The notes under the pieces are model-generated. The model was not told the DNA's origin, searched no databases, and saw only the letters and a list, made by a program, of their open reading frames with translations. From contig JALSJF010000010.1 in NCBI GenBank assembly GCA_026989505.1, positions 1 through 34,535 on the forward strand: a stretch of 34,535 bases of DNA, written 5' to 3'. The first letter of the stretch is position 1. Each line of letters opens with the position of its first letter. Position numbers and translations under genes: made by a program. Source of the stretch: Cyclobacteriaceae bacterium (GTDB lineage Bacteria > Bacteroidota > Bacteroidia > Cytophagales > Cyclobacteriaceae). Shown here piece after piece: positions 6,287 through 17,294 of this stretch.

Positions 6287-8347
6287 TTAGCTAAACCCGG
6301 TGAATACCAGGTAAGCCACAACATAAGCCAGCCCCGACATATACAGGGTTTGCAACAGGGGCCACTTCCAGCCTTTGGTTTCGCGGTAAACCACAGCGAG
6401 GGTACTCATACACTGCATGGCAAAAGCATAAAAGACCATCAACGACAGGCCTACCGGCAGGGTAAACACCGGTAACCCGGTACGGGGGTTAATTTCATTT
6501 TTCATTTTCGACTTGATGGTGGCCTCATCGTCTGCCCCTGACTGAATGCTGTACAGGGTGGCCATGGTCCCCACAAATACTTCGCGGGCGGCAAAGGAAG
6601 TAACCAGGGCAATGCCAATTTTCCAATCGTAGCCCAGCGGCCTGATGATGGGCTCCAGGCCTTTGCCCAGCATGGCGGCATAGGAGTGTTCGAGCTTATA
6701 GGCCGCCAGTTTATTATCAAACTCTTGCCGGGTATAGGACTGGCCGGCAAATGATTCCTGCACCTTTGCTTCTGCCTGTTCCATGGCATCACCAGGGCCA
6801 TAAGAGGCCAGCACCCAGAGCACAATGGATATGGCAACAATTATTTTGCCCGCCTCAAAAGTGAAGGTACGTACTTTTTCCACAATAATCAGGCCCACGT
6901 TTTTCCAGCGCGGCCGTTTGTAGGTGGGCAGTTCCATAATCAAAAAACTCCGCTCCCGGGTTTTGATCACCCGCTGCAACAGCCAGGCCGTGATTAACGC
7001 GGCCCCAAAGCCCAGCAGGTAAAGGGCCAGCAGCACCAGCCCCTGAAGAGTTAAGAAACCCAGTACCGTTTCATCAGGAATCACCAGGGCAATTAAAATG
7101 GTGTACACCGGCAGCCGGGCCGAGCAACTTATCAGCGGGGTAACAAAAATGGTAATCAGCCGTTCCTTCAGGTTTTCGATATTGCGGGTGGCCATAATGG
7201 CCGGAATGGCACAGGCCACACCCGAAATAAGCGGCACCACGCTCTTGCCGTTAAGCCCCACCTTGCGCATGATCTTGTCCATTAAAAACACGACCCGCGA
7301 CATATAGCCCGACTCTTCGAGCAAGGCAATAAAAGCAAACAGAATGGCAATCTGCGGGATAAAAATCATTACCCCGCCTACCCCGGGCACAATGCCGTCT
7401 TTGAGCAGGGAGGTGAGCACCCCGGGCGGCAATACCTGCCCCAGCCAGTTGGAAAAACTGCTGACATAATTGTCGATCAAATCCATTGGCCAGCTAGCCA
7501 GGGTGAAGATGGCCTGAAAAATGACAAACAGAATGGCGATGAAGATCAGATAGCCCCAGACCTTATGCGTGAGCACCTTGTCAATCCGGTCAGTATATAC
7601 TTTCAACCCTTTTTGGTTGGTGGGCTTTTCGGCCTTTTGCACAATGCGGTTAATCTTACCGTAGCGCAGGGTAGTATCCCGGGTTTGTAACGACTGCGCC
7701 TTGTCTTCGGCTACCTGATTGGCTGCCAGAAGCTGGTGCAGTTTCAGGTAGGGCGAAACTTTACTGTTGTTAATTGCCGTGCTTAACGCAGGGCCGGCAA
7801 TTTCATTAATATCGAGGAAAGGCCGTGGGCGTGGGCGTACCGGTGCGGCCAGGGCTTCCTTCAGGCGGTGGATACCCTCCCCCTTGCGGGCATTGATAGC
7901 CACTACGGGGATAGCATACGCGGCTGCCAGGCTATCGGCAAGCACACCTTTGCCCATCCGTTCGGCCAGGTCCACCATATTAAGGGCCAGGATTGTGGGT
8001 ATCCCCAGGTCAATAACCTGCGATAATAATAGCAGGTTACGCTTGAGGTTGGAAGCATCTACGGTAACCACCAGGACATCGGGGAAATCTTTGTTGTCCG
8101 GGTCGGTGAGGATATCGGTTACCACTTGTTCGTCCGAAGATTTGGCATAGAGGCTATAAGTGCCCGGTAAGTCAAGTACATTAACCCTGGAGCCATTGGC
8201 CAGCAACAAAGTGCCGGTTTTTTTATCCACCGTTACCCCGGGGAAATTGCCCACTTTTTGGTTCAGGCCGGTTAACTGGTTGAATAATGATGTTTTTCCC
8301 GAATTTGGATTACCGATCAGGGCGACATTCAATACTTTAGCTGCCAT
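6287..8347 (-). CDS. feoB: Ferrous iron transporter FeoB
   Basis: FeoB is the inner-membrane Fe(II) importer with a cytoplasmic G domain. G1 is GNPNSGKTS at residues 12-20, G2 lies around FPGVTV (35-40), G3 is DLPGT (59-63) and G4 is NMVD (about 122-125). The membrane part starts near residue 265, with the Gate regions, a Cys-containing segment GVACAIPAIMATRNIE and a second Gate ending FAMQCMSTLAVVYRETKGWKW. At 686 residues it is shorter than the 773-residue E. coli protein but in the range of compact FeoB forms; no FeoC gene follows. Its ATG comes directly after the feoA stop codon (TAAATG), so the pair is translationally linked. The gene runs toward the unrelated 708-residue protein. Confidence 0.97.
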   Translation of the reverse strand: MAAKVLNVALIGNPNSGKTSLFNQLTGLNQKVGNFPGVTVDKKTGTLLLANGSRVNVLDLPGTYSLYAKSSDEQVVTDILTDPDNKDFPDVLVVTVDASNLKRNLLLLSQVIDLGIPTILALNMVDLAERMGKGVLADSLAAAYAIPVVAINARKGEGIHRLKEALAAPVRPRPRPFLDINEIAGPALSTAINNSKVSPYLKLHQLLAANQVAEDKAQSLQTRDTTLRYGKINRIVQKAEKPTNQKGLKVYTDRIDKVLTHKVWGYLIFIAILFVIFQAIFTLASWPMDLIDNYVSSFSNWLGQVLPPGVLTSLLKDGIVPGVGGVMIFIPQIAILFAFIALLEESGYMSRVVFLMDKIMRKVGLNGKSVVPLISGVACAIPAIMATRNIENLKERLITIFVTPLISCSARLPVYTILIALVIPDETVLGFLTLQGLVLLALYLLGFGAALITAWLLQRVIKTRERSFLIMELPTYKRPRWKNVGLIIVEKVRTFTFEAGKIIVAISIVLWVLASYGPGDAMEQAEAKVQESFAGQSYTRQEFDNKLAAYKLEHSYAAMLGKGLEPIIRPLGYDWKIGIALVTSFAAREVFVGTMATLYSIQSGADDEATIKSKMKNEINPRTGLPVFTLPVGLSLMVFYAFAMQCMSTLAVVYRETKGWKWPLLQTLYMSGLAYVVAYLVFTGFS

Positions 8348-8578
8348 TTACCCTACCAACGAAATTGTTGCCGCTTCCGCTTTGCGCAAGGATAACCGGT
8401 AACCATCAACACTAATACATATCGGGTCGCCCAGGGGGGCAGCAAATTTCATGCGCACTTCGGTGCCGGGCAAACAACCCATGTCTAATAATTTCAGCGC
8501 CAGCTTGTCATCCTTAAAACAGCATATTTTGCCCACTTCTCCGGGGGCCAGGTTGGCTACTGTTTTTTGCTCGCTCAT
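8348..8578 (-). CDS. feoA: Ferrous iron transport protein FeoA
   Basis: A 76-residue SH3-fold cytoplasmic partner of FeoB. The start is taken as MSEQKTVANL at 8578. An in-frame ATG 18 codons upstream would place the N-terminus over the promoter and adds a sequence unlike the family. Family features are LAPGEVGKICCF near the start, LLDMGCLPGTEV in the middle (the usual LxxMGLxPGxxV signature with Cys in place of Leu) and GDPICISVDGYRLSLRKAEA at the end. It is the first gene of the feoAB operon. Confidence 0.95.
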   Translation of the reverse strand: MSEQKTVANLAPGEVGKICCFKDDKLALKLLDMGCLPGTEVRMKFAAPLGDPICISVDGYRLSLRKAEAATISLVG

Positions 8579-8602
8579 TTTATTTAGACTAATTATAAAC
8601 AA

Positions 8603-8633
8603 CAAAGATAATGGGCTTTGCCCCGTAAACAAA
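8603..8633 (-). promoter_or_regulatory. feoAB promoter of Bacteroidota type
   Basis: On the reverse strand TTTG (8633-8630), a 19-base spacer and TATCTTTG (8610-8603) give a complete match to TTTG-N19-TAnnTTTG. The -7 box ends 24 bases before the feoA start codon. This is the clearest promoter in the window. Confidence 0.75.
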
Positions 8634-8671
8634 ATGATCTATATCATGATTGAAGGAAAGATTTTTATCTT
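8634..8671. promoter_or_regulatory. Two small inverted repeats upstream of feoAB, candidate operator
   Basis: Directly upstream of the -33 box lies ATGAT-N4-ATCAT (8634-8647), followed by AAGAT-N4-ATCTT (8658-8671). Both are perfect 5-4-5 repeats in AT-rich DNA. Ferrous uptake operons are usually iron-controlled through Fur or DtxR-family proteins, and these are plausible binding sites, but neither matches a full Fur box. The assignment to a regulator is inference. Confidence 0.35.
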
Positions 8672-8833
8672 ATCTTAATTAAGGGCATCGTGGCTTCCGC
8701 CACCCAAACGTTTACCGCGTTAAATTAGGCCAGCATTGGCAGCAGGATGAAAGGGCAAAAGACCATTACCCTTCACGGCCAGGGGTTCCGCCTTGTAATT
8801 GACAAATAAATTGCTTAAATTATAGCCCCGGTA

Positions 8834-8864
8834 TTTCCTGGCAATAAGCGATATCGTATCTTTA
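8834..8864 (+). promoter_or_regulatory. Possible promoter of the hisA-like gene
   Basis: TTTC (8834-8837), 19 bases and TATCTTTA (8857-8864) resemble TTTG-N19-TAnnTTTG with one mismatch in each box, 26 bases before the ATG at 8891. Most of the rest of the 312-base divergent region between feoA and this gene (8672-8833) shows nothing I can assign. Confidence 0.4.
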
Positions 8865-8890
8865 CATGTTTGGTATAAAATCAGAATAAA

Positions 8891-9619
8891 ATGCAATTAA
8901 TCCCCTCAATAACCATAATCAAAGGGCAGATCAACCGCCTCAAACAAGGTGATTTTTCTAAGCCAACGGCTTACCAGGACAGCCCGGTGGACCTGGCCCG
9001 GAAATTCGAAGAGCATGGTGTTGAAGTGGTGCATTTGGTTGATTTGGATGGCGCCCGTGAAGGGTGGCCGATAAACTACCATATCCTGGAAGCCATCGTA
9101 GGCCATACTAACCTGAAAGTTGATTTTACCGGGGGCATCAATACCGATGGGGATGTGAGCAAAGCCTTTGAGTACGGGGCCAGTTACCTTACTATTGGCA
9201 ATGTGGCGGTGAATAACCGCAAGTTATTTGCCTCCTGGATTATTTCATATGGCCGCGAGAAAATCACCCTCAGTGCCGACAGCCTGCAAGGCAAGATTGC
9301 CGTCAGGGGCTGGCAGAAAAAGACAGACATTGATTTATTTGACCACATCGGTTATTTTTATGACCGCGGGCTGAAGTATGTGAAGGTTACCGACATTGAA
9401 CGGGATGGCATGATGCAGGGCCCGGCCCTCAAGTTGTATCAAGCTATCATGCAAAGGTTTCCTGATATTCAAATCCTTGCCAGTGGCGGGGTGCGTCATG
9501 TAGATGACCTGAAAGCTTTGGCCGACATCGGTGTGTTTGCCACCATCTTTGGCCGGGCCTATTTTGAAGGAAAGATAAAACTGGCCGACCTGGAAGCCTT
9601 CACGGCCGGGGCTGTGTAG
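8891..9619 (+). CDS. HisA-like TIM-barrel protein with altered catalytic site
   Basis: The sequence aligns along its whole 242 residues with HisA, the ProFAR isomerase of histidine synthesis. Shared segments are DLDGAREG (51-58), the phosphate-binding loops TGGIN (80-84) and ASGGVRHVDDL (197-207), KIAVRGWQ (135-142) and TDIERDGMMQGP (167-178). Asp130, equivalent to the general acid of HisA, is kept. The general base, Asp8 in PAID of normal HisA, is Thr8 here (PSIT). The usual Arg after GGI is Asn84. No other his gene is near; HisA normally sits beside hisF and hisH. I therefore call it a HisA-family paralogue rather than hisA: it may be inactive, act on another sugar phosphate, or be a real HisA with an unusual mechanism. 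Confidence 0.8.
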   Translation: MQLIPSITIIKGQINRLKQGDFSKPTAYQDSPVDLARKFEEHGVEVVHLVDLDGAREGWPINYHILEAIVGHTNLKVDFTGGINTDGDVSKAFEYGASYLTIGNVAVNNRKLFASWIISYGREKITLSADSLQGKIAVRGWQKKTDIDLFDHIGYFYDRGLKYVKVTDIERDGMMQGPALKLYQAIMQRFPDIQILASGGVRHVDDLKALADIGVFATIFGRAYFEGKIKLADLEAFTAGAV

Positions 9620-9622
9620 CCT

Positions 9623-9988
9623 TTATTCAAGCGGATCGGTGAACTTAAACTTATCGATGATATAATAGATAAAGTTAAAAGACATGGCCGAATTGGGGTC
9701 ATCCTCTTCCTGTACCGTTTCAGCCTCCGCCCGGCTTTTATCAAAAGTTGTTAAACCATTGTTCTGCCTAACTACCGGCTTTGCCAGAGGTTGCGCCTGA
9801 GGATAGACCGGAACGATAAAATCATCCTGCACCTTGTTCTCTTCTGCGTAAATATCCAGGCTGTCTTCGGCTGTTTTTTTCTTTTTAGGACAATCCTCAC
9901 CCGGCCCATCTACACCGGCATATACCGGTGCCGCCAGCAAACTGGCCGTAATCATAGCTAAAATCAGGAATAAATTTTTGTGTAACAC
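9623..9988 (-). CDS. Small exported protein of unknown function
   Basis: A 121-residue protein with a signal peptide ending near LLAAPVYA (about residue 24), followed by GEDCPKKKK and a long low-complexity region rich in Glu, Asp, Lys and Pro. It ends with a more ordered aromatic segment, NFIYYIIDKFKFTDPLE. The only mature Cys is in that GEDCPKK motif. I recognise no family. It is convergent with the hisA-like gene, with three bases between stop codons. A secreted or periplasmic location is inferred from the signal peptide. Confidence 0.6.
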   Translation of the reverse strand: MLHKNLFLILAMITASLLAAPVYAGVDGPGEDCPKKKKTAEDSLDIYAEENKVQDDFIVPVYPQAQPLAKPVVRQNNGLTTFDKSRAEAETVQEEDDPNSAMSFNFIYYIIDKFKFTDPLE

Positions 9989-10120
9989 AGTTCAGGCCAT
10001 GGTTAACGTGTGTAAATATACGGGGTTTAGATTGAAAATGTTATGCCCCTATTGAAAAAATAATACTAATTTTATTGCACTTAGCTAAGAATTGCAAAAT
10101 TGCCGCAAACATAGTACAAT

Positions 10121-10468
10121 ATGGATGAAATAAAGAGCAAAATTTCCTGGGGGGAATTTGAAAAAGTTGACCTCCGGGCCGGTACCATCATCAAAGCCGA
10201 ACCCTTCCCCGAAGCCCGTAAACCAGCCTATAAATTGTGGGTTGATTTAGGCCCGCTGGGAATAAAAAAATCAAGCGCCCAAATCACCGCCCATTATAAA
10301 CTACAGGATTTGCCCGGCAAACAAGTGGTATGTGTGGTGAATTTCGGGGATAAGCAAATCGGCCCGTTTATTTCGCAGTTGCTGGTTACAGGTTTTGCCG
10401 ATGAAAACGGCAACATTATCCTTACTACCGTTGATAAAAAAGTGCCCAATGGCGCGCAACTATTCTGA
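10121..10468 (+). CDS. csaA: CsaA-like tRNA-binding protein
   Basis: A 115-residue stand-alone EMAP/Trbp111-type OB-fold domain. The family signature is easy to see: WGEFEKVDLRAGTI near the start, FPEARKPAYKLWVDLG, then the KSSAQIT segment, VVCVVNFGDKQIGPFISQLLVTGF and the end VPNGAQLF. CsaA proteins dimerise and bind tRNA; the Bacillus protein has also been described as a secretion chaperone. The upstream 130 bases give no clear promoter. It is followed after 63 bases by alr in the same direction, so the two could share a transcript. Confidence 0.93.
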   Translation: MDEIKSKISWGEFEKVDLRAGTIIKAEPFPEARKPAYKLWVDLGPLGIKKSSAQITAHYKLQDLPGKQVVCVVNFGDKQIGPFISQLLVTGFADENGNIILTTVDKKVPNGAQLF

Positions 10469-10531
10469 ATGTTCTTGCTGACCCCAAAAGACTAAATTGT
10501 ATTTTTACCGGGTAATTTCCTTGTCTGAAAA

Positions 10532-11647
10532 ATGCAAAATAAAAATATAAAATTGCATCCTACCAAGCTGGTGGTCAATCGCCAGGCGTTGCTGAATAAT
10601 GCCCTGGCCTACCGGCAAATGCTCCCGGCAACAACTAAACTAATGTTGATGATCAAAGCTTTTGGCTATGGTAGCGGGGATGTGGCCATTGCCCGGGCCC
10701 TGGCCCAAAACAAGGCCCTTGATTATTTAGGTGTAGCCTATATAAACGAAGGTATCGCCCTGCGCGAAGAAGGCGTAAGCCTACCGGTTATGGTAATGAA
10801 CCCCGGCATTACCGACCTCGAAGAGGTGCTGGCCTTTAACCTGGAACCCACCCTTTATAACCCACAGCAACTAACACAATTGCTCAAACTAAACCCGCAA
10901 AAAATCAGCGGCATAAAAGTGCATGTTAAAATCGACAGCGGCATGCACCGGCTGGGGTTTCATATCGATGAAATTAACGAGGCTGCCGCCAGGTTGAAGG
11001 AGGCTAAGGTTGAGGTAGTTGGCGCCTATACCCATTTGGCCTCTACCCCGGAACCCGGCCACGATGCGTTTACCCACCGGCAAGTTGCCTATTTCAACCA
11101 GGCCTATGAACTCCTGGTGAGGGTGTTGGGGTATACTCCCCTGCGCCATGTGCTCAACTCGGCCGGTATTGTGCGCTTCCCCGAATACCATTACGACATG
11201 GTGCGGGCCGGTATGGGGGTATATGGTATCGACCCTTCCGGCACCGAACAGGAAAAATTCAGGCCTATCAGCCGCTTTGTTACCGAAATATCGCAAATTA
11301 ACACCCTCGCTAAAGGCGAGACCGTAGGCTATGTAAGACGTGGCCGAATCACCCGCAATAACAGCCGTATTGCCGTGCTGCCGGTGGGCTATGCCGATGG
11401 CTATAACCGCCTGTTCAGTAATGGCGCTGCCGAGGTGTTTGTTAATGGCCACCGGGCCCCGGTAATTGGCAACATTTGCATGGACATGACTTTTGTTGAT
11501 GTTACGGATATCCCTTGTAACGTTGGCGATGAGGTGGAGTTATTTGGTGATAACATCCCCATTCAGGAGCTAGCCGATGCCGCCAACACGATTGACTATG
11601 AAATCCTGACCAGCATTGGCGCCCGTGTGGTGCGCGAATATGTGTAA
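10532..11647 (+). CDS. alr: Alanine racemase, stand-alone
   Basis: A PLP enzyme making D-alanine for peptidoglycan. The N-terminal TIM barrel carries the PLP lysine as Lys42 in MIKAFGYGSG. The C-terminal beta domain carries the catalytic Tyr267 in GETVGYVRRG, and NICMDMTFVDVT is the usual substrate-site motif. The length, 371 residues, is normal for Alr. The variant KAFGYG, rather than KANAYG of most Alr enzymes, is what I associate with the Alr half of the MurF-Alr fusions common in Bacteroidota, but no MurF domain is present here: the ATG at 10532 is preceded by a clear gap after csaA. A genome might also carry the fused version, making this a second racemase. Confidence 0.93.
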   Translation: MQNKNIKLHPTKLVVNRQALLNNALAYRQMLPATTKLMLMIKAFGYGSGDVAIARALAQNKALDYLGVAYINEGIALREEGVSLPVMVMNPGITDLEEVLAFNLEPTLYNPQQLTQLLKLNPQKISGIKVHVKIDSGMHRLGFHIDEINEAAARLKEAKVEVVGAYTHLASTPEPGHDAFTHRQVAYFNQAYELLVRVLGYTPLRHVLNSAGIVRFPEYHYDMVRAGMGVYGIDPSGTEQEKFRPISRFVTEISQINTLAKGETVGYVRRGRITRNNSRIAVLPVGYADGYNRLFSNGAAEVFVNGHRAPVIGNICMDMTFVDVTDIPCNVGDEVELFGDNIPIQELADAANTIDYEILTSIGARVVREYV

Positions 11648-11738
11648 ACAGGGCCGTGCGCAGATGAAGGGAAAAGTTATCGGTGCACGCATACCAACTT
11701 CCTGATAAATTATGTAGATTAAGGGTTTAATTTTGTTG

Positions 11739-13043
11739 ATGCCCTTCAGAAAAACAAAACCTACGACCGGTAAACAGCAAGCCCTGGCACAATTCCGCCA
11801 GCATGTTTCCAGTAGCAAGGCCGCTTTCTTTAAAAAATACGGCATGGACTTTATTATGGGCGAACGTCAGGGCCCGCATCTGCATGACCTGGATGGGCAC
11901 AAGAAGCTCTATAACCTCCATTGCAATGGCGGGGTGTTTAACCTGGGCCATCGCAACCGGGAGATCATCAACACCCTGCAGGAAAGCCTCAACCATCTTG
12001 ATATCGGCAACCACCATCTTATGAGCCAACCCCGGGCGGCCCTGGCAAAACAACTGGCCGCACTAATGCCTCACGGCCTCGAATACACCGTTTTTGGTGT
12101 CAGTGGCGGAGAGGCCATCGACCTGGCCATTAAAGTAGCCCGTGGTTTCACCCAGCGAAAAAAAATCCTCTCCGCCCGGGGCGGCTACCATGGCCATACC
12201 GGCTTATCCATCCAGGCCGGGGATGCGCATTACCGGCAGCCTTTCCAACTTTCTTCGGCAGACTTTATGCAGGTGCCTTTTAACAACCCCGCTGCCCTGG
12301 CGGCCGCCCTGGATGATAAAGTGGCTGCGGTGTTGCTGGAAACCATTCCCGCTACCCTGGGCATGCCGGTACCTGAGCAAAATTATTACCGCCAGGTCAA
12401 AGAGCTCTGCCGGCAACATGGGGCCCTCCTTATTCTTGATGAGGTACAAACCGGCCTTGGCCGCACCGGCAAACTCTGGGCCTTTGAACATTTTAATGTG
12501 GTGCCCGATATGGTGGTGCTGGGTAAAGGGCTGTCGGGCGGTATCTACCCGGTTAGCGCTACCGTGCTGAATAAAAAGCTGGAGGCGGTATTTCATGCAG
12601 ATCCGTTTATCCATATTTCCACCTTTGGCGGGGCCGAGTTGGGCTGCAGGGTAGCACAAAAAGTGTTGTCCATCGCCTCGCAGCCGGAGTTCCTGCAACA
12701 TGTTAATCAATTGGCCGAAAAATTTATGGGGGAACTACAGGGGCTGCAACAAAAACATAGCCCCCTGTTTAAAGGTGTACATGGCCTGGGCTTAATGCTG
12801 GCCCTGGAGTTTACCAGTGCCCTGGCCGGCCCCGTGCTGACCAAAACTGCCTATGCTAACGATCTGTTGTTAATTTATGCCAATAATGATACGGCCCGGG
12901 TACAGTTTTTACCCCCTCTCACCATGCAGGAAGGTGACATTCCCTATGTCATCGGGCAGTTGGATAAGGCCATTCGCCAACTCAAACGCCTGTTGCCCCT
13001 GGTGAAAGCAAAACAGGCCATCGCTTCATTTTTTAACACGTAA
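11739..13043 (+). CDS. Class III PLP aminotransferase, first gene of three-gene cassette
   Basis: A 434-residue fold-type I enzyme of the class III family (acetylornithine, 4-aminobutyrate and glutamate-semialdehyde relatives). I see the substrate entry segment HCNGGVFNLGHRN, the PLP phosphate region FGVSGGEAIDLAIKVAR, the stacking motif GGYHGHTG, LLILDEVQTGLGRTG with Asp234 for the pyridine nitrogen, and Lys263 in VVLGKGLSGGIYP for the Schiff base. All catalytic positions are intact. The start is the ATG at 11739; two TTG codons just upstream are less likely. Four bases separate it from the next gene, and nothing in the context (no arg, hem or bio genes) identifies the substrate. A TAATTTTG at 11728-11735 resembles a -7 box but sits too close to the ATG unless the message is leaderless. 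Confidence 0.9.
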   Translation: MPFRKTKPTTGKQQALAQFRQHVSSSKAAFFKKYGMDFIMGERQGPHLHDLDGHKKLYNLHCNGGVFNLGHRNREIINTLQESLNHLDIGNHHLMSQPRAALAKQLAALMPHGLEYTVFGVSGGEAIDLAIKVARGFTQRKKILSARGGYHGHTGLSIQAGDAHYRQPFQLSSADFMQVPFNNPAALAAALDDKVAAVLLETIPATLGMPVPEQNYYRQVKELCRQHGALLILDEVQTGLGRTGKLWAFEHFNVVPDMVVLGKGLSGGIYPVSATVLNKKLEAVFHADPFIHISTFGGAELGCRVAQKVLSIASQPEFLQHVNQLAEKFMGELQGLQQKHSPLFKGVHGLGLMLALEFTSALAGPVLTKTAYANDLLLIYANNDTARVQFLPPLTMQEGDIPYVIGQLDKAIRQLKRLLPLVKAKQAIASFFNT

Positions 13044-13047
13044 TTTG

Positions 13048-13953
13048 ATGAACCGTAACCAGGAAACCCTCCGTAAGTTCGAACAGGGCCTCAACCCGCA
13101 AGCCCCGGAAAAATCAACTGTCAAAGCCGAGGTGAAAGGCTACGGGGAAATATCTTCGATTTTCTCTGTAGCCGGAATTGCCGGCTGGGTTTTCAAGCGC
13201 CTGCCCCTTTTTGCTACCGTTGCCGAAGCCGAAAAATATGTGGCCAACTACCAGCGCTACACTGCAGCTTTACAGGAGGCCGGCCTGCACCTGCCTGCCG
13301 ACAGCACCACCATTGTGGAGGGCGAAAAGGTGGTATTATACATTGGGCAGGAAGAAATCGGCAAAGAAAACTTCTGCCATAACTTATTGCATAGCCTGCA
13401 AGCCTCCGACAATATTGCCATGATCAGCCAGCTGCTTACGCAAATCAATAAAGTATTTAACTATAACCAACAACACCGGCCGGCCGTGGAGTTGAGCATT
13501 GACGGCCAGGTTTCCAACTGGGCAAGGGTTAACCGGCAAATCGTTTTTGTGGATACCAGCACCCCGCTTTTTAAACACCACGGGAAAGAGCAACTCGACC
13601 CGGAATTATTACTTAACAGCACTCCCGGGATATTAAAATGGATTATCCGCAAGTTCTTTTTACAAGAGGTGATGGACAGGTACTATGACCAACGGCTGGT
13701 GTATATTGACCTGCTGGCCAACCTGCACAAAGAGCAAAAGCCGGAATTAATCCCCGAAGCCTTGCAGGCGGCCAACAACCAACTGCCGGATACGCTCGAA
13801 AAAATTTCCCGTAAAGAAGTTGACAACTATTATAAAGAAGATAAGTTTATCTGGCAACTGTTCTTGTCCTTCCGTAAAACAGACCGCTGGTTCACCAATA
13901 ACATTCTTGGCAGGCGCTATCAGTTTATCCTGCCGGGGAAAATAAAACGCTGA
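13048..13953 (+). CDS. Kinase-fold protein (DUF6206-like)
   Basis: A 301-residue cytoplasmic protein with the landmarks of an atypical, aminoglycoside-phosphotransferase-like kinase. A glycine-rich loop GYGEISSIF (31-39) is followed by WVFKRLP with a candidate ATP-binding Lys50, a helical middle lobe, DGQVSNWA (152-159) in the place of the catalytic HGDxxxxN loop (Asp152, Asn157), and FVDTSTP with Asp169 in the place of the metal-binding DFG aspartate. I recall a family of unknown function, DUF6206, with this opening, but cannot confirm the number. The helical C-terminal part (190-300) is rich in aromatic and basic residues. It sits between an aminotransferase and an Ntn hydrolase with 4- and 6-base gaps, so it probably acts on the same small molecule. 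Kinase activity is inference. Confidence 0.7.
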   Translation: MNRNQETLRKFEQGLNPQAPEKSTVKAEVKGYGEISSIFSVAGIAGWVFKRLPLFATVAEAEKYVANYQRYTAALQEAGLHLPADSTTIVEGEKVVLYIGQEEIGKENFCHNLLHSLQASDNIAMISQLLTQINKVFNYNQQHRPAVELSIDGQVSNWARVNRQIVFVDTSTPLFKHHGKEQLDPELLLNSTPGILKWIIRKFFLQEVMDRYYDQRLVYIDLLANLHKEQKPELIPEALQAANNQLPDTLEKISRKEVDNYYKEDKFIWQLFLSFRKTDRWFTNNILGRRYQFILPGKIKR

Positions 13954-13959
13954 CCAACC

Positions 13960-15267
13960 ATGTGTGACACCTTTGTAGCCCTGCCCCCTGCCACGGCCGA
14001 TGGTTCGGTAATCTTCGCCAAAAACAGCGACCGTGAAGCTAATGAGGCCCAGCAACTGGAATACCATGCCGCCCAAACCCATCACGCGGAGAGCATGGTG
14101 CAATGTACCTACCGCAGCATCCCGCAGGCCGGCCATACCCATGCCGTACTGCTTTCACGACCTTTTTGGATGTGGGGGGCAGAAATGGGGGCCAACGAGC
14201 ATGGGGTGGTAATTGGCAACGAGGCCGTTTTTACCCGGTTAAAGGTAGCCCGGAAGGGGGTACTTACCGGCATGGACTTGCTACGCCTGGCGCTGGAACG
14301 CACCGCTACAGCCACAGCAGCCAAAGACCTGATTATTGAACTCCTGGGCCGCTACGGGCAAGGTGGAGTGGCCGGCTATACCGATAAAACATTTGCCTAT
14401 CACAACAGTTTTATCATAGCCGACCAACAGCAAGCCTGGGTGCTGGAAACGGCCGGGGAATTCTGGGCGGCAAAAAAAGTAACAACCTATTATACGATTA
14501 GCAATGGCTTAACCATTGAAGAAGATTACGATGAGATACATCCCGGGGCAGAGGCTTTTGCCCGCAAAAAGGGCTGGGTTAGGCAGAAAAGGTTTGGCTT
14601 TGCTACTGCTTTTTCCGACTGGCTTTTCACCCGTTTTTCAGCCTGCCGGGTAAGACAGGAGCAAACGAATAACCATTTAGCCGCAGGTAAAATTACCGTT
14701 CACGGGGCTATGGCACACCTGCGTTCGCATCACCAGGAGCCCTACAACCCTGCCAACCATTGGTTAAGCAATGCCATTTGTGCCCATGCCGGCTATCCCC
14801 TTACCCGCCATGCCGGACAAACTACCGGTTCGCTGGTTGCCCACCTCACTACCAGGCCAACGTATTGGGTTACCGCTACTTCAACCCCCTGTTTGTCGGT
14901 CTTTAAACCGGTTTGGTTACATGGCCCGGTTTTACCGGAACTGGGCCCGGAACTTACCGGAAAGTTTAATCAAAGCTCCTTCTGGTGGCAGTTTGAAGCA
15001 CTGCACCGGGAAGTGCTGAAAGACTATCGCAGCCGGGCCGGAACGGTGCAAAAAGAACAGGCGGCTTTGCAGCAAGCTTTGCTGGCCATGGTTTATGATG
15101 AGCAAGCGCGAGGCTATGCGGTAACGGCAGAAGCCTTTGCCCGGGCCGGCCGGCTGAGCCCAGGACTGCAGGATAAAATCAAATCCCTGCCGGTACAACA
15201 TAAGGCCAACCTGTTGTACCGCGCCTATTGGGCCAGGTTGAACAAGGTGTCCGGAATGGCCGGATGA
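13960..15267 (+). CDS. Secernin-like Ntn hydrolase (peptidase family C69)
   Basis: A 435-residue protein that starts MCDTFVALPPATADGS, the hallmark of secernins: after removal of Met1, Cys2 would be the N-terminal nucleophile, with no propeptide. Further family segments are VIFAKNSDREANEAQ (18-32), SRPFWMWGAEMGANEHGVVIGNEAVFTR, GMDLLRLALER and the NSFIIADQQQAWVLETAGEFWAAKK block. Related enzymes are dipeptidases or amidohydrolases that cleave a C-N bond of small amides; the substrate of bacterial secernin-like proteins is mostly unknown. No signal peptide, so cytoplasmic. It closes the operon with the aminotransferase and the kinase-like gene. A mix of amino transfer, phosphorylation and amide hydrolysis suggests handling of a modified amino acid or polyamine. 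Confidence 0.88.
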   Translation: MCDTFVALPPATADGSVIFAKNSDREANEAQQLEYHAAQTHHAESMVQCTYRSIPQAGHTHAVLLSRPFWMWGAEMGANEHGVVIGNEAVFTRLKVARKGVLTGMDLLRLALERTATATAAKDLIIELLGRYGQGGVAGYTDKTFAYHNSFIIADQQQAWVLETAGEFWAAKKVTTYYTISNGLTIEEDYDEIHPGAEAFARKKGWVRQKRFGFATAFSDWLFTRFSACRVRQEQTNNHLAAGKITVHGAMAHLRSHHQEPYNPANHWLSNAICAHAGYPLTRHAGQTTGSLVAHLTTRPTYWVTATSTPCLSVFKPVWLHGPVLPELGPELTGKFNQSSFWWQFEALHREVLKDYRSRAGTVQKEQAALQQALLAMVYDEQARGYAVTAEAFARAGRLSPGLQDKIKSLPVQHKANLLYRAYWARLNKVSGMAG

Positions 15268-15313: not shown

Positions 15314-16345
15314 TCAATAATATTTCTGCCGCAGCCAAAAAGCTACCCGCACCAGCAGGATTAAAGCCGGCACCTCTACCAGCGGGCCAATCACCCCGGC
15401 AAAGGCCTGGCCGGAATTGAGGCCGAAAACAGCTATGGCCACCGCTATGGCCAGTTCAAAATTATTACCGGCCGCGGTAAAGGCAATAGAGGCGGTTTTC
15501 GTATAACCGGCCGCCAGTTTTTTACTGATAAAAAAACTGAGCAGGAACATAACGGCAAAATAGATGAGTAACGGCACGGCAATTGCCGCCACATCCATGG
15601 GTATTTCTACAATTAAATCCCCCTTTAACGAAAACATCACCACAATAGTAAACAGCAAGGCCACCAGGGTAAGGGGCGCTATGGCCGGGATAAATTTGCC
15701 GTTATACCAGCCCTCCCCTTTGCGCTTCACCAGCACCAGCCGGCTTACTGCCCCGGCCACAAAAGGGATTCCGAGGTAAATAGCCACACTCTTGGCAATG
15801 GTAGTAATGGAGATATCTACGATAGCCCCGGCATAGCCAAAATAAGGCGGCAATACGGTGATAAACAGCCAGGCATAAAAACTATAAGCAAATACCTGGA
15901 AAATACTGTTTAAAGCTACCAGGCCGGCCCCATACTCACCGCTGCCCCCGGCCAGGTCGTTCCATACCAATACCATGGCAATGCAACGGGCCAGGCCAAT
16001 CAGGATCAGGCCCACCATATACTCCGGGTAATCATGCAGGAAAACCAGGGCCAGCACAAACATCAACACCGGGCCGATGAGCCAGTTAAGCACCAGCGAA
16101 ATGGCCAGGGTCTTTACATCGCGAAAAACCTGCGGTAACAGCTTATAATCCACTTTGGCCAGGGGCGGGTACATCATCAAAATAAGGCCAATAGCAATAG
16201 GGATATTGGTAGAGCCCCTGCTAAAGGAATCAACAAAGCCGGCCGCAGCCGGAAAAAGGGCGCCAAGGGCTACGCCCAACGCCATGGCCAGGAATATCCA
16301 CAGGGTAAGATAACGGTTAAGAAAACCTAATTTTTTAATGGCCAT
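15314..16345 (-). CDS. acr3: Arsenite efflux permease Acr3
   Basis: A 343-residue inner-membrane carrier with about ten hydrophobic helices, of the Acr3 branch of the BART superfamily, expelling As(OH)3 or arsenite. The helix-four motif [13 protein letters not shown] with Cys121, essential in characterised Acr3 proteins, is present, as are [13 protein letters not shown] near the start, the [18 protein letters not shown] helix and [13 protein letters not shown] with the conserved Glu near the end. Its ATG overlaps the stop codon of arsC by one base (TAATG), showing coupled translation in an arsR-arsC-acr3 operon. It is convergent with the secernin-like gene, 46 bases away. Confidence 0.96.
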
Positions 16346-16956
16346 TACTTCTTATTTATCAAAGCAAAAACATAAAACATCTCGGCCGCAATTTGCTGCG
16401 AGCGGGCCGCGTACATTGCGGCCTCACGGGCAGTGCCGTCAAATTCTTTAGGGTCATCATAGCGAAGCGGGATACGCACCCCGGCCCCGGGGATAAAGGG
16501 ACAGTTTTCATCGGCCCCGGCACAGGTCATAACCGCGGCAAATCCATTGCGGGGGTTGGCCGGGTCATCGTATAATTTCGACCAGGCCAGTATAGGCGGG
16601 GCATCGCTGGCAAAGCGTATTTCATAGCGCGGGTTAGCATGGCTGTCTTTTTTGCTGATCTTGAAGCCAACCCCCGATAAGGCTGCTACCGCCCGTTCGT
16701 CAAAGGCCGTTACGGCCACCCCGCCCGAATAGCTATTGGCCCGGATACCATAAAAACAGGCCGCTGTCTGGGCCCATACCTGCGCCAGTTGGCTCCTGCG
16801 GCTGTTGTGGGTACAGATAAAGTTTACGTTTACGGCCCGGCCCACGGCAGCTTCCGCACGGATATAAGCTGCCAGGTTGTTAAGTACCGCCAGCCGCGCA
16901 GTGGCTACAGGAGCCTGCGGCAGACGGGCAATAAAGCGGCAAAGCTCCGGGTACAT
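16345..16956 (-). CDS. arsC: Arsenate reductase of the low-molecular-weight phosphatase type
   Basis: It reduces arsenate to arsenite for export by Acr3. The P-loop C-x5-R-S reads CTHNSRRS (Cys48, Arg54, Ser55). The general-acid aspartate is in [10 protein letters not shown], and two more cysteines (Cys145, Cys152 in [11 protein letters not shown]) could form the redox relay of thioredoxin-coupled enzymes. The 203 residues include a 45-residue N-terminal helical extension before the P-loop that the 130-residue enzymes lack. I chose the ATG at 16956, two bases after the arsR stop codon, because MYPEL begins that extension. An ATG eight codons earlier (16980) overlaps arsR. Confidence 0.9.
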
Positions 16957-16958
16957 CG

Positions 16959-17294
16959 CTAACAAATACCGGGGCCACATACCCCGTTATAACTATCGAA
17001 TAGCCGGTTAAACAACGCTTTAATTTCCTGCCATCTTTGCGGGTTGATACAATAACTTACCGATACCCCTTCAATGGTTCCCCGGATTAACCCTGCCTCT
17101 TTCAACTCGCGCAGATGCTGGCTGATGGTGGCCTGGGCCAGCCCCAGTTCCTGTACCAGGTCACCATTGATACAGGCATTGGCCTTCAGCAGGTACTCAA
17201 GAATGGCCACCCGGGCCGGATGGGCAAAGGCCTTGGCCGTTTGGGCCAGGGCATTCTGCCGGTCGGTAAATAAATCGGTTTTGGTTACCCCCAT
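16959..17294 (-). CDS. arsR: ArsR/SmtB-family repressor
   Basis: A 111-residue winged-helix repressor that releases DNA when it binds arsenite. The helix-turn-helix is LVQELGLAQATISQHLRELKEAGLI (46-70), followed by the wing GTIEGVSVSYCINP. Candidate thiol ligands are Cys41, just ahead of the recognition helix, Cys82, and Cys106 plus Cys111 in the C-terminal CGPGIC. The classic E. coli CVCDLC motif is absent, so the As(III) site must use another arrangement, as several ArsR subtypes do. First gene of the operon; probably autoregulated through the palindromic region just upstream. Confidence 0.93.
   Translation of the reverse strand: MGVTKTDLFTDRQNALAQTAKAFAHPARVAILEYLLKANACINGDLVQELGLAQATISQHLRELKEAGLIRGTIEGVSVSYCINPQRWQEIKALFNRLFDSYNGVCGPGIC

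Follow-up and report, generated by a model that had tools for sequence, protein, structure and literature searches.

A conserved gene unit of a class III PLP enzyme, a DUF6206 protein and a secernin, and a possible pathway for amines arriving as amides

What pathway could unite a class III pyridoxal phosphate (PLP) enzyme, a kinase-like protein and a secernin? The question is raised by three tightly spaced genes in a Cyclobacteriaceae bacterium (assembly GCA_026989505.1, contig JALSJF010000010.1), of which we analysed positions 1 to 34,535 of the forward strand; this whole stretch of 34,535 nucleotides is called the window below. The source genome (G000) is a 3.5 Mb draft of 273 contigs, 96% complete, and the window lies on its contig 10. 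A sequence-only reading of the locus had reported an aminotransferase, a kinase-fold protein and a secernin-like hydrolase in a row. We recover the same reading frames, with the PLP and DUF6206 genes 4 bases apart, the DUF6206 and secernin genes 6 bases apart, and all three co-directional:

11739..13043, + strand: class III PLP (fold-type I) enzyme, 434 residues; ATG at 11739, in-frame TTG at 11733; PF00202 match
13048..13953, + strand: DUF6206 protein, 301 residues; ATG at 13048, TTG at 13045; PF19709 match
13960..15267, + strand: secernin-type C69 N-terminal nucleophile (Ntn) hydrolase, 435 residues; PF03577 match; predicted nucleophile Cys2 behind Met1

In Pfam, the PLP enzyme matches Aminotran_3 at E 6.6e-77 (259.3 bits, cut-off 30.5), the DUF6206 protein matches its family at E 3.9e-28 (98.9 bits, cut-off 30.4) and the secernin matches Peptidase_C69 at E 1.9e-10.

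The conservation described below gives good support to the three genes being a functional unit, as their tight order had suggested: the PLP–DUF6206 pair is adjacent at 26 loci, 19 of them with a secernin, and all three genes co-occur in every genome of a 198-genome Spirochaetota sample that has a close relative of the PLP enzyme. The cassette probably serves a single route of catabolism (or salvage) whose starting amine comes in amide form. As its most likely chemistry we tentatively propose hydrolysis of the amide, phosphorylation of the product and, last, a PLP-dependent elimination that yields an aldehyde.

A gene unit found in three phyla

Scanning our genome collection for DUF6206 returned 21 loci with confirmed relatives: 17 in Bacteroidota, 3 in Marinimicrobia/Neomarinimicrobiota and 1 in a Leptospiraceae metagenome-assembled genome (MAG). 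Within the window's own family, 4 of 148 genomes gave a DUF6206 match, that of G002 only at E 8.4e-4 and with the partner genes not near. No relative of the window's DUF6206 protein was found in the plasmid and phage collections (E up to 1e-5 and 0.01).

At 26 loci in three phyla, rather than in this genome alone, a PLP gene stands directly 5' of DUF6206 on the same strand, with gaps of -37 to +22 bases as measured from the starts of the longest open reading frames (ORFs). This count includes 20 hand-chosen Spirochaetota and Bacteroidota regions and is not a random sample; genes were placed by genome coordinates in L126 and by annotation in L078. The secernin gene is contiguous with the pair at 19 of the 26, in the order PLP-DUF6206-secernin at 16 and secernin-PLP-DUF6206 at three (L116, L117, L118). 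Among the remaining seven, four have a secernin elsewhere in the genome (L016/G184, L033/G549, L122/G691, L127/G561); in G184 and G549 the pair has no linked secernin, yet the distant one is of the same type. At L034 the secernin lies 2.2 kb from the pair and is inverted, at L028 the contig stops after DUF6206, and no secernin-type match was found in the genome of L035 (G551) despite its PLP-DUF6206 pair. DUF6206 genes without an adjoining PLP gene were seen at contig starts (L032 and L015/L037, the latter being one locus), at contig ends (L038, L039) and at L036, where the DUF6206 frame is broken in two.

The three families also occur together in whole genomes. In a sample of 198 Spirochaetota genomes, DUF6206 is present in 17, a secernin (E up to 1e-20) in 38 and a close PLP relative (44% identity or more) in 16, and all 16 of the last also carry both DUF6206 and a secernin. 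Tabulated for the PLP enzyme and DUF6206, 16 genomes have both, none the PLP enzyme only, one DUF6206 only and 181 neither. Fisher's test gives 1.2e-22 for this pair (2.0e-21 with G740 counted), 1.6e-13 for PLP enzyme and secernin and 2.3e-12 for DUF6206 and secernin; kinship was not corrected for and, because the sampled genomes are related, these values are not clean probabilities. The PLP and DUF6206 genes are neighbours on one contig in 15 of the 16 genomes and sit on separate short contigs in G716, while the secernin gene is contiguous with them in 7, 2.2 kb off in 1, and in the other 8 distant or on a separate contig. The seventeenth DUF6206 genome (G724) holds a distant member of 280 residues and lacks the partner genes. 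Further PLP matches at E up to 1e-70 came from G740 (43% identity) and from G604 and G741 (34-35%).

In a Bacteroidota sample of 395 genomes, the PLP enzyme and an above-cut-off DUF6206 occur in the same two genomes, both with a secernin; G225 gave a sub-threshold DUF6206 match. Secernins occur in five genomes of this sample, the other three being G082, G121 and G129, where the PLP gene is absent. The relation is thus lopsided: the pair is seldom without a secernin, and there are secernins without the pair. Such a pattern would be expected if the pair acts on what the secernin produces.

The three proteins and their surroundings

Class III transaminases such as γ-aminobutyrate and ornithine aminotransferase alternate with 2-oxoglutarate by means of a Glu/Arg pair. 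The sequence-only reading had taken the window's enzyme for a class III aminotransferase with intact catalytic residues. Its fold and PLP lysine stand, K263 falling in the lysine column common to all 46 aligned rows; the amino transfer does not stand as read. The Glu of EPxxGE is replaced by Thr206, the Arg before xPPL by Gln389 and the Pro of GGNP by Glu300. Thr206 and Gln389 are found together in 26 of 26 cassette enzymes, at the positions where E. coli PatA, GabT and ArgD have Glu and Arg; because of this replacement, an ordinary 2-oxoglutarate transaminase is unlikely. The argument bears on 2-oxoglutarate and does not extend to all transamination, since E. coli BioA also lacks both residues.

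Adding relatives from Mesorhizobium, Phyllobacterium, Pseudomonas, Burkholderia and G740 to the 26 cassette enzymes gives a group of 31. Glu300 and Gln389 are present in all 31 and Thr206 in 30, with Ser in Burkholderia, where PatA, GabT and ArgD have Pro, Arg and Glu, respectively. In the tree, 25 of the 31 form one clade (support 100/99), with the same result when 24 are used. Seven residues (H61, N63, G64, H92, P204, E300 and Q389) are invariant in the clade (30/30 or 31/31) and absent from nine reference rows, which were chosen for keeping Glu and Arg and exclude BioA, HemL, a Thioclava enzyme discussed below and three rows from the window's own genome. Across 15 rows outside the clade, none has Gln389 or Glu300 (one is gapped at 389), and the Thioclava enzyme, a relative of phospholyases, shares N63.

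For the middle protein, an AlphaFold2 model computed with 15 relatives (predicted local distance difference test, pLDDT, 88.1; predicted template modelling score, pTM, 0.86) gave 444 Foldseek matches in the PDB at E up to 0.001, of which the best 50 are all kinases. Aligned with VIA-align, the model matches PRPK at Z 11.6 (root-mean-square deviation 4.7 Å over 199 residues), APH(3')-Ia at Z 11.1 (4.3 over 198), Rio1 at Z 10.7 (5.6 over 186) and WaaP at Z 10.5 (4.7 over 197). Rows within 1 Z were counted as tied, so no kinase subgroup is named. The kinase-like motifs are G31/G33/E34/S36, K50, D152-x-Q154-x-S156-N157-W158 and D169. In 32 distinct sequences picked at E up to 1e-30, a set that leaves aside the distant G724 member, G31, G33 and K50 are invariant in the 28 sequences reaching those columns, and D152, N157 and D169 in the 30 reaching theirs. 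A bilobal protein-kinase-like fold is therefore well supported for DUF6206 as a prediction, in agreement with the kinase fold first read from these motif residues; the model did not come out as another fold.

R301, the final residue, is the same in 32 of 32 sequences, a hint that the C-terminal tail serves some purpose. Although structurally similar to APH, the window's protein gave no match to the Pfam APH family (PF01636) at E up to 1, and a search of PDB sequences returned nothing but potassium-channel chains at E 0.14-0.16. Four Spirochaetota DUF6206 proteins are longer, at 507-517 residues (L119:6277-7830, L120:7851-9380, L121:5990-7513, L127:6849-8390). Their extra ~180-190 residues are N-terminal, with no Pfam match there in L119, the one scanned.

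The secernin-like Ntn hydrolase with an exposed Cys2 that had been seen in the third gene agrees with what we find. M1-C2-D3-T4 is invariant in 14 aligned sequences, and MCDT occurs inside the first 40 residues of 34 of 35 distinct secernin ORFs. The model, of middling confidence (pLDDT 79.9, pTM 0.87; a poor stretch at 260-288; five models ranging from 79.9 to 55.4), best matches the C69 dipeptidase of Lactobacillus farciminis, with a Foldseek E of 6.6e-17 to 5img and a VIA Z of 32.9 to 5iau. It superposes on the latter at 3.4 Å over 389 residues with only 15-16% sequence identity. Next come isopenicillin N acyltransferase, bile salt hydrolases and penicillin acylases. On this modelling, a hydrolase of Ntn fold with Cys2 as predicted nucleophile is well supported. 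The window's secernin has no PDB sequence match at E up to 0.1. Compared with an unverified sequence of human secernin-1, it is 37% identical over 329 residues, with the common block WGAEMGANEHGV; if that sequence is right, the protein is a secernin proper, not a PepD-like dipeptidase.

Secernins occur in other settings too. In the three Bacteroidota genomes mentioned above (loci L129 in G121, L130 in G082 and L134 in G129), a flavin amine oxidase gene is near the secernin each time, and a carbon-nitrogen hydrolase gene in two, the third being partly tested. For three Haladaptatus relatives, no kinase or PLP neighbour is listed in gene tables that are incomplete; one of them, on a plasmid of Haladaptatus halobius (L155), lies near a glycine-betaine ATP-binding cassette (ABC) transporter and a carbon-nitrogen hydrolase family gene.

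The sequence-only reading had seen no neighbour from an amino acid pathway. This needs correcting, as an alanine racemase gene ends 91 bases upstream of the cassette:

10532..11647, + strand: alanine racemase; PF01168 and PF00842 matches

We considered this gene as a fourth member and rejected it. It is probably not part of the unit, because among the 31 other loci tested, namely those with the cassette or DUF6206, many of them short, it stands beside the cassette in one only, the same-genus L014. Farther upstream, 10121-10468 encodes a stand-alone tRNA-binding domain protein (PF01588). On the 3' side, the first of three - strand genes at 15314-17294 is convergent with the cassette and encodes a protein of the bile acid:sodium symporter family (PF01758); a low-molecular-weight phosphatase/arsenate reductase-like frame and an ArsR regulator-like frame follow. 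The three are probably arsenic resistance genes, the second and third being named from reading alone. Promoter-like sites numbered 9 against 4.9 expected (standard deviation 2.5) and terminator-like sites 9 against 8.8; neither set was used.

Elsewhere, the pair of L016 (G184:C6:58000-77900, at 7357-11870) sits between a tryptophan 2,3-dioxygenase family gene and kynureninase in an operon-like arrangement with gaps of 39 and 38 bases. A tryptophan/kynurenine pathway was rejected as the general role: this context occurs in G184 alone, and the presence of tryptophan dioxygenase is uninformative because all six genomes searched have it, whether or not they carry the cassette. Glycerate kinases near L116 and L117 were likewise set aside, being of two families and differing orientation and not seen elsewhere among tested neighbours. 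In a Spirochaetota genome, a gene for an MbnB/TglH/ChrH-type modification enzyme of ribosomally synthesised and post-translationally modified peptides lies near the cassette on the opposite strand (L118:9621-12170).

A possible route from amide to aldehyde, and its alternatives

The conserved unit, the predicted folds, the conserved catalytic residues and the loss of the canonical 2-oxoglutarate switch are in place; that the three genes share one small-molecule pathway, as the sequence-only reading had supposed, we infer, together with the order of steps, the substrate class and elimination over transamination. In the proposed route, the secernin, its Met1 removed, would use Cys2 on an amide to release a primary amine bearing a hydroxyl (an amino alcohol or hydroxy-amine). 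The DUF6206 kinase would then phosphorylate that hydroxyl with ATP. Finally, the PLP enzyme would form an aldimine with the amine and eliminate the phosphate, and hydrolysis would give ammonia and an aldehyde (or ketone), as in known kinase/phospholyase pairs.

Comparable assemblies exist elsewhere. All five Thioclava plasmids have a relative of the window's secernin (~40% identity) flanked by amidase and phosphotransferase genes, and an ABC transporter is encoded close by. One of the phosphotransferases was tested and belongs to the APH family (PF01636); its four counterparts share 74-99% identity with it. Two of these plasmids continue with a class III PLP enzyme, the two copies being 98% identical. 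For the one searched, the best solved relatives are phospholyases: 5g4i (E 1.3e-102), which we take to be phospholyase A1RDF1, and 6tor (E 3.2e-97), an ethanolamine-phosphate phospho-lyase. PRK06148, a model that covers a fusion of the two activities, matches the Thioclava kinase at one end and the PLP enzyme at the other, with scores under the cut-off that applies to the fused protein.

Branches of the window's own PLP clade also have suggestive neighbours. In Pseudomonas MPC6, an APH gene is directly downstream. In Phyllobacterium, a type I phosphodiesterase family protein (Pfam) is encoded directly upstream, and its Mesorhizobium equivalent is 92% identical to it. In Burkholderia, an aldehyde dehydrogenase gene 107 bases downstream of the PLP gene is the stronger neighbour, because the APH there, which lies in a divergent group and is also at the choline/ethanolamine kinase cut-off, has a histidine phosphatase beside it. 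The APH gene of G740 (L147), 451 bp upstream of the PLP gene, was not counted as support, because it is near a histidine-phosphatase-like gene and perhaps belongs to an unrelated cluster, presumably a common one. Chance proximity was gauged in six genomes with 2-6 APH matches each: none lies closer than 10 kb to any of five PLP paralogues, of which four are in the tree and several on short contigs. In the window's genome, the contigs that carry its four other class III genes above the cut-off have no APH either. As we read these assemblies, their common thread would be a free primary amine handled after amide cleavage.

A number of observations weigh against the elimination route. Three of the five Thioclava loci leave no room for a PLP gene before uvrB, and the phospholyase gene is absent there; the APH genes of Burkholderia and G740 may belong to other systems. 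The kinase fold does not name a substrate for DUF6206, because protein kinases (PRPK, Rio1) match the model alongside APH and WaaP. Beside the cassette in the window, neither an aldehyde dehydrogenase nor a transporter was recognised. Incomplete sets occur as well. DUF6206 stands alone at L030, with neither a PLP nor a C69 match in its genome (G546), and G740 has a clade member and a secernin without DUF6206. The MAGs G551 and G553 have the PLP gene and no secernin-type match. In the MAG G554, a DUF6206 fragment is accompanied by C69 genes; one of these was compared and, at only 22% identity, is of another type. Secernins occur without DUF6206 in 22 of the 198 Spirochaetota genomes and in three of the five secernin genomes of the Bacteroidota sample. 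The tryptophan-dioxygenase/kynureninase setting of G184 is unexplained by the pathway.

The lineage of the PLP enzyme counts on the same side. Its nearest characterised relative, by score and in the tree, is putrescine aminotransferase, the closest PDB entries being the PatA-type 4uox and 5h7d (E 2e-62 to 3e-62), and it groups with PatA-side paralogues instead of with the phospholyase clade or the Thioclava enzyme, the latter a long branch of unsure place. Four sister paralogues retain Glu and Arg, a contrast that we also count in favour of elimination. These Spirochaetota genes (L148, L150, L151, L152), three of which have tested neighbours (L148, L150, L152) and adjoin amino-acid permeases, are perhaps amine transaminases with their own importer; a small SCP2-like protein is encoded beside the paralogue of L150, the one tested for it.

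This kinship speaks for the main rival, in which the enzyme is still an aminotransferase but passes the amino group to, for example, pyruvate in place of 2-oxoglutarate. The secernin would deacylate, the kinase would act on the amine or the product, and no elimination would take place; an amine would be degraded or made by way of a phosphorylated intermediate. BioA, annotated as a transaminase without either switch residue, offers a precedent. For a mere change of acceptor, however, the seven clade-invariant residues missing from the nine references would be a large remodelling, and enzymes of phosphorylated compounds recur by other branches of the PLP clade. We regard this rival as a real but rather unlikely possibility.

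The PLP enzyme might instead be a racemase, epimerase or aminomutase (HemL- or class III racemase-like). Its substrate would be an amino acid that the secernin releases from a peptide or amide, and the kinase would act next. No 2-oxoglutarate switch is required in such enzymes, and it is missing from E. coli HemL; the PDB relatives include class III racemases, C69 relatives carry dipeptidase names, and in this genus an alanine racemase lies upstream. That gene adjoins only one of the 31 other loci, however, and no conserved partner hints at amino acid isomers, which leaves an isomerase improbable.

We give a similarly low probability to a regulatory role for DUF6206, in which it would be a protein kinase or RNA-modification kinase controlling the PLP enzyme or the secernin instead of a metabolic kinase. 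PRPK/Bud32 (Z 11.6) and Rio1 (Z 10.7) do tie with APH(3')-Ia (Z 11.1), and R301 is conserved as though the tail forms an interface, but in the Thioclava and Pseudomonas assemblies the place of the kinase is held by APH phosphotransferases, a family whose phosphorylated targets are mostly small molecules. That the genes share no pathway and adjoin through descent or chance is very improbable, synteny being partly inherited inside each clade but the unit appearing in two gene orders and three phyla, with co-occurrence even where unlinked.

The elimination route keeps its place as the tentative choice. A bolder combination would make the cassette an undescribed amide hydrolase/kinase/phospho-amine lyase pathway, DUF6206 a new family of small-molecule kinases, the Thr/Glu/Gln clade an independently evolved phospholyase and the amide the natural substrate of the secernin family, so predicting what class of substrate the catalytically active human secernins use. 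That all of these are right at once is doubtful.

Meaning and relation to known systems

If true, the proposal would give DUF6206 a function and suggest that kinase/phospholyase chemistry was put together twice from different parts. It also calls for caution, as some annotated class III aminotransferases are without the residues expected for that role. In one open-access library we found no paper on DUF6206, nothing related on secernin with an aminotransferase gene cluster, a phosphotransferase or Ntn/glyoxylyl, and nothing on a 1-amino-2-propanol kinase/phospho-lyase; none of this proves absence from print.

The window's secernin has its Ntn fold and Cys2 in common with the secernins and C69 dipeptidases (MEROPS C69, human SCRN1-3). 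In a 2022 review (PMC9140057), the substrates of SCRN1-3 are still called elusive. The bacterial cassette would be a first experimental handle on this family with its three human members: once the substrates of the kinase and the PLP enzyme are found, the product of the secernin is known too.

Among the relatives of the PLP enzyme, PatA (YgjG) keeps the switch Glu and Arg, where the window's enzyme has Thr206 and Gln389. The class III enzyme PbfA, annotated as a transaminase, is in fact a lyase, (R)-1-hydroxy-2-aminoethylphosphonate ammonia-lyase, according to PMC8154272. Against PbfA, the window's enzyme scores 202 bits where the PbfA cut-off is 525; the phosphonate-related context of phnF and DUF1045 is found near the Phyllobacterium relative and was not recognised near the window's cassette.

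The closest parallel lies in the kinase and phospholyase pairs of the ETNPPL/PHYKPL/A1RDF1 type, fused in PRK06148/PRK06149, where a kinase-fold protein likewise goes with a class III enzyme without the Glu/Arg pair. The window's cassette differs from these in that its kinase is DUF6206, not APH, and its PLP enzyme comes from another class III lineage near PatA, with Thr/Gln where the Thioclava enzyme has Ser/Lys. The split kinase/phospholyase form of Thioclava also has a secernin relative, as the window's cassette has a secernin.

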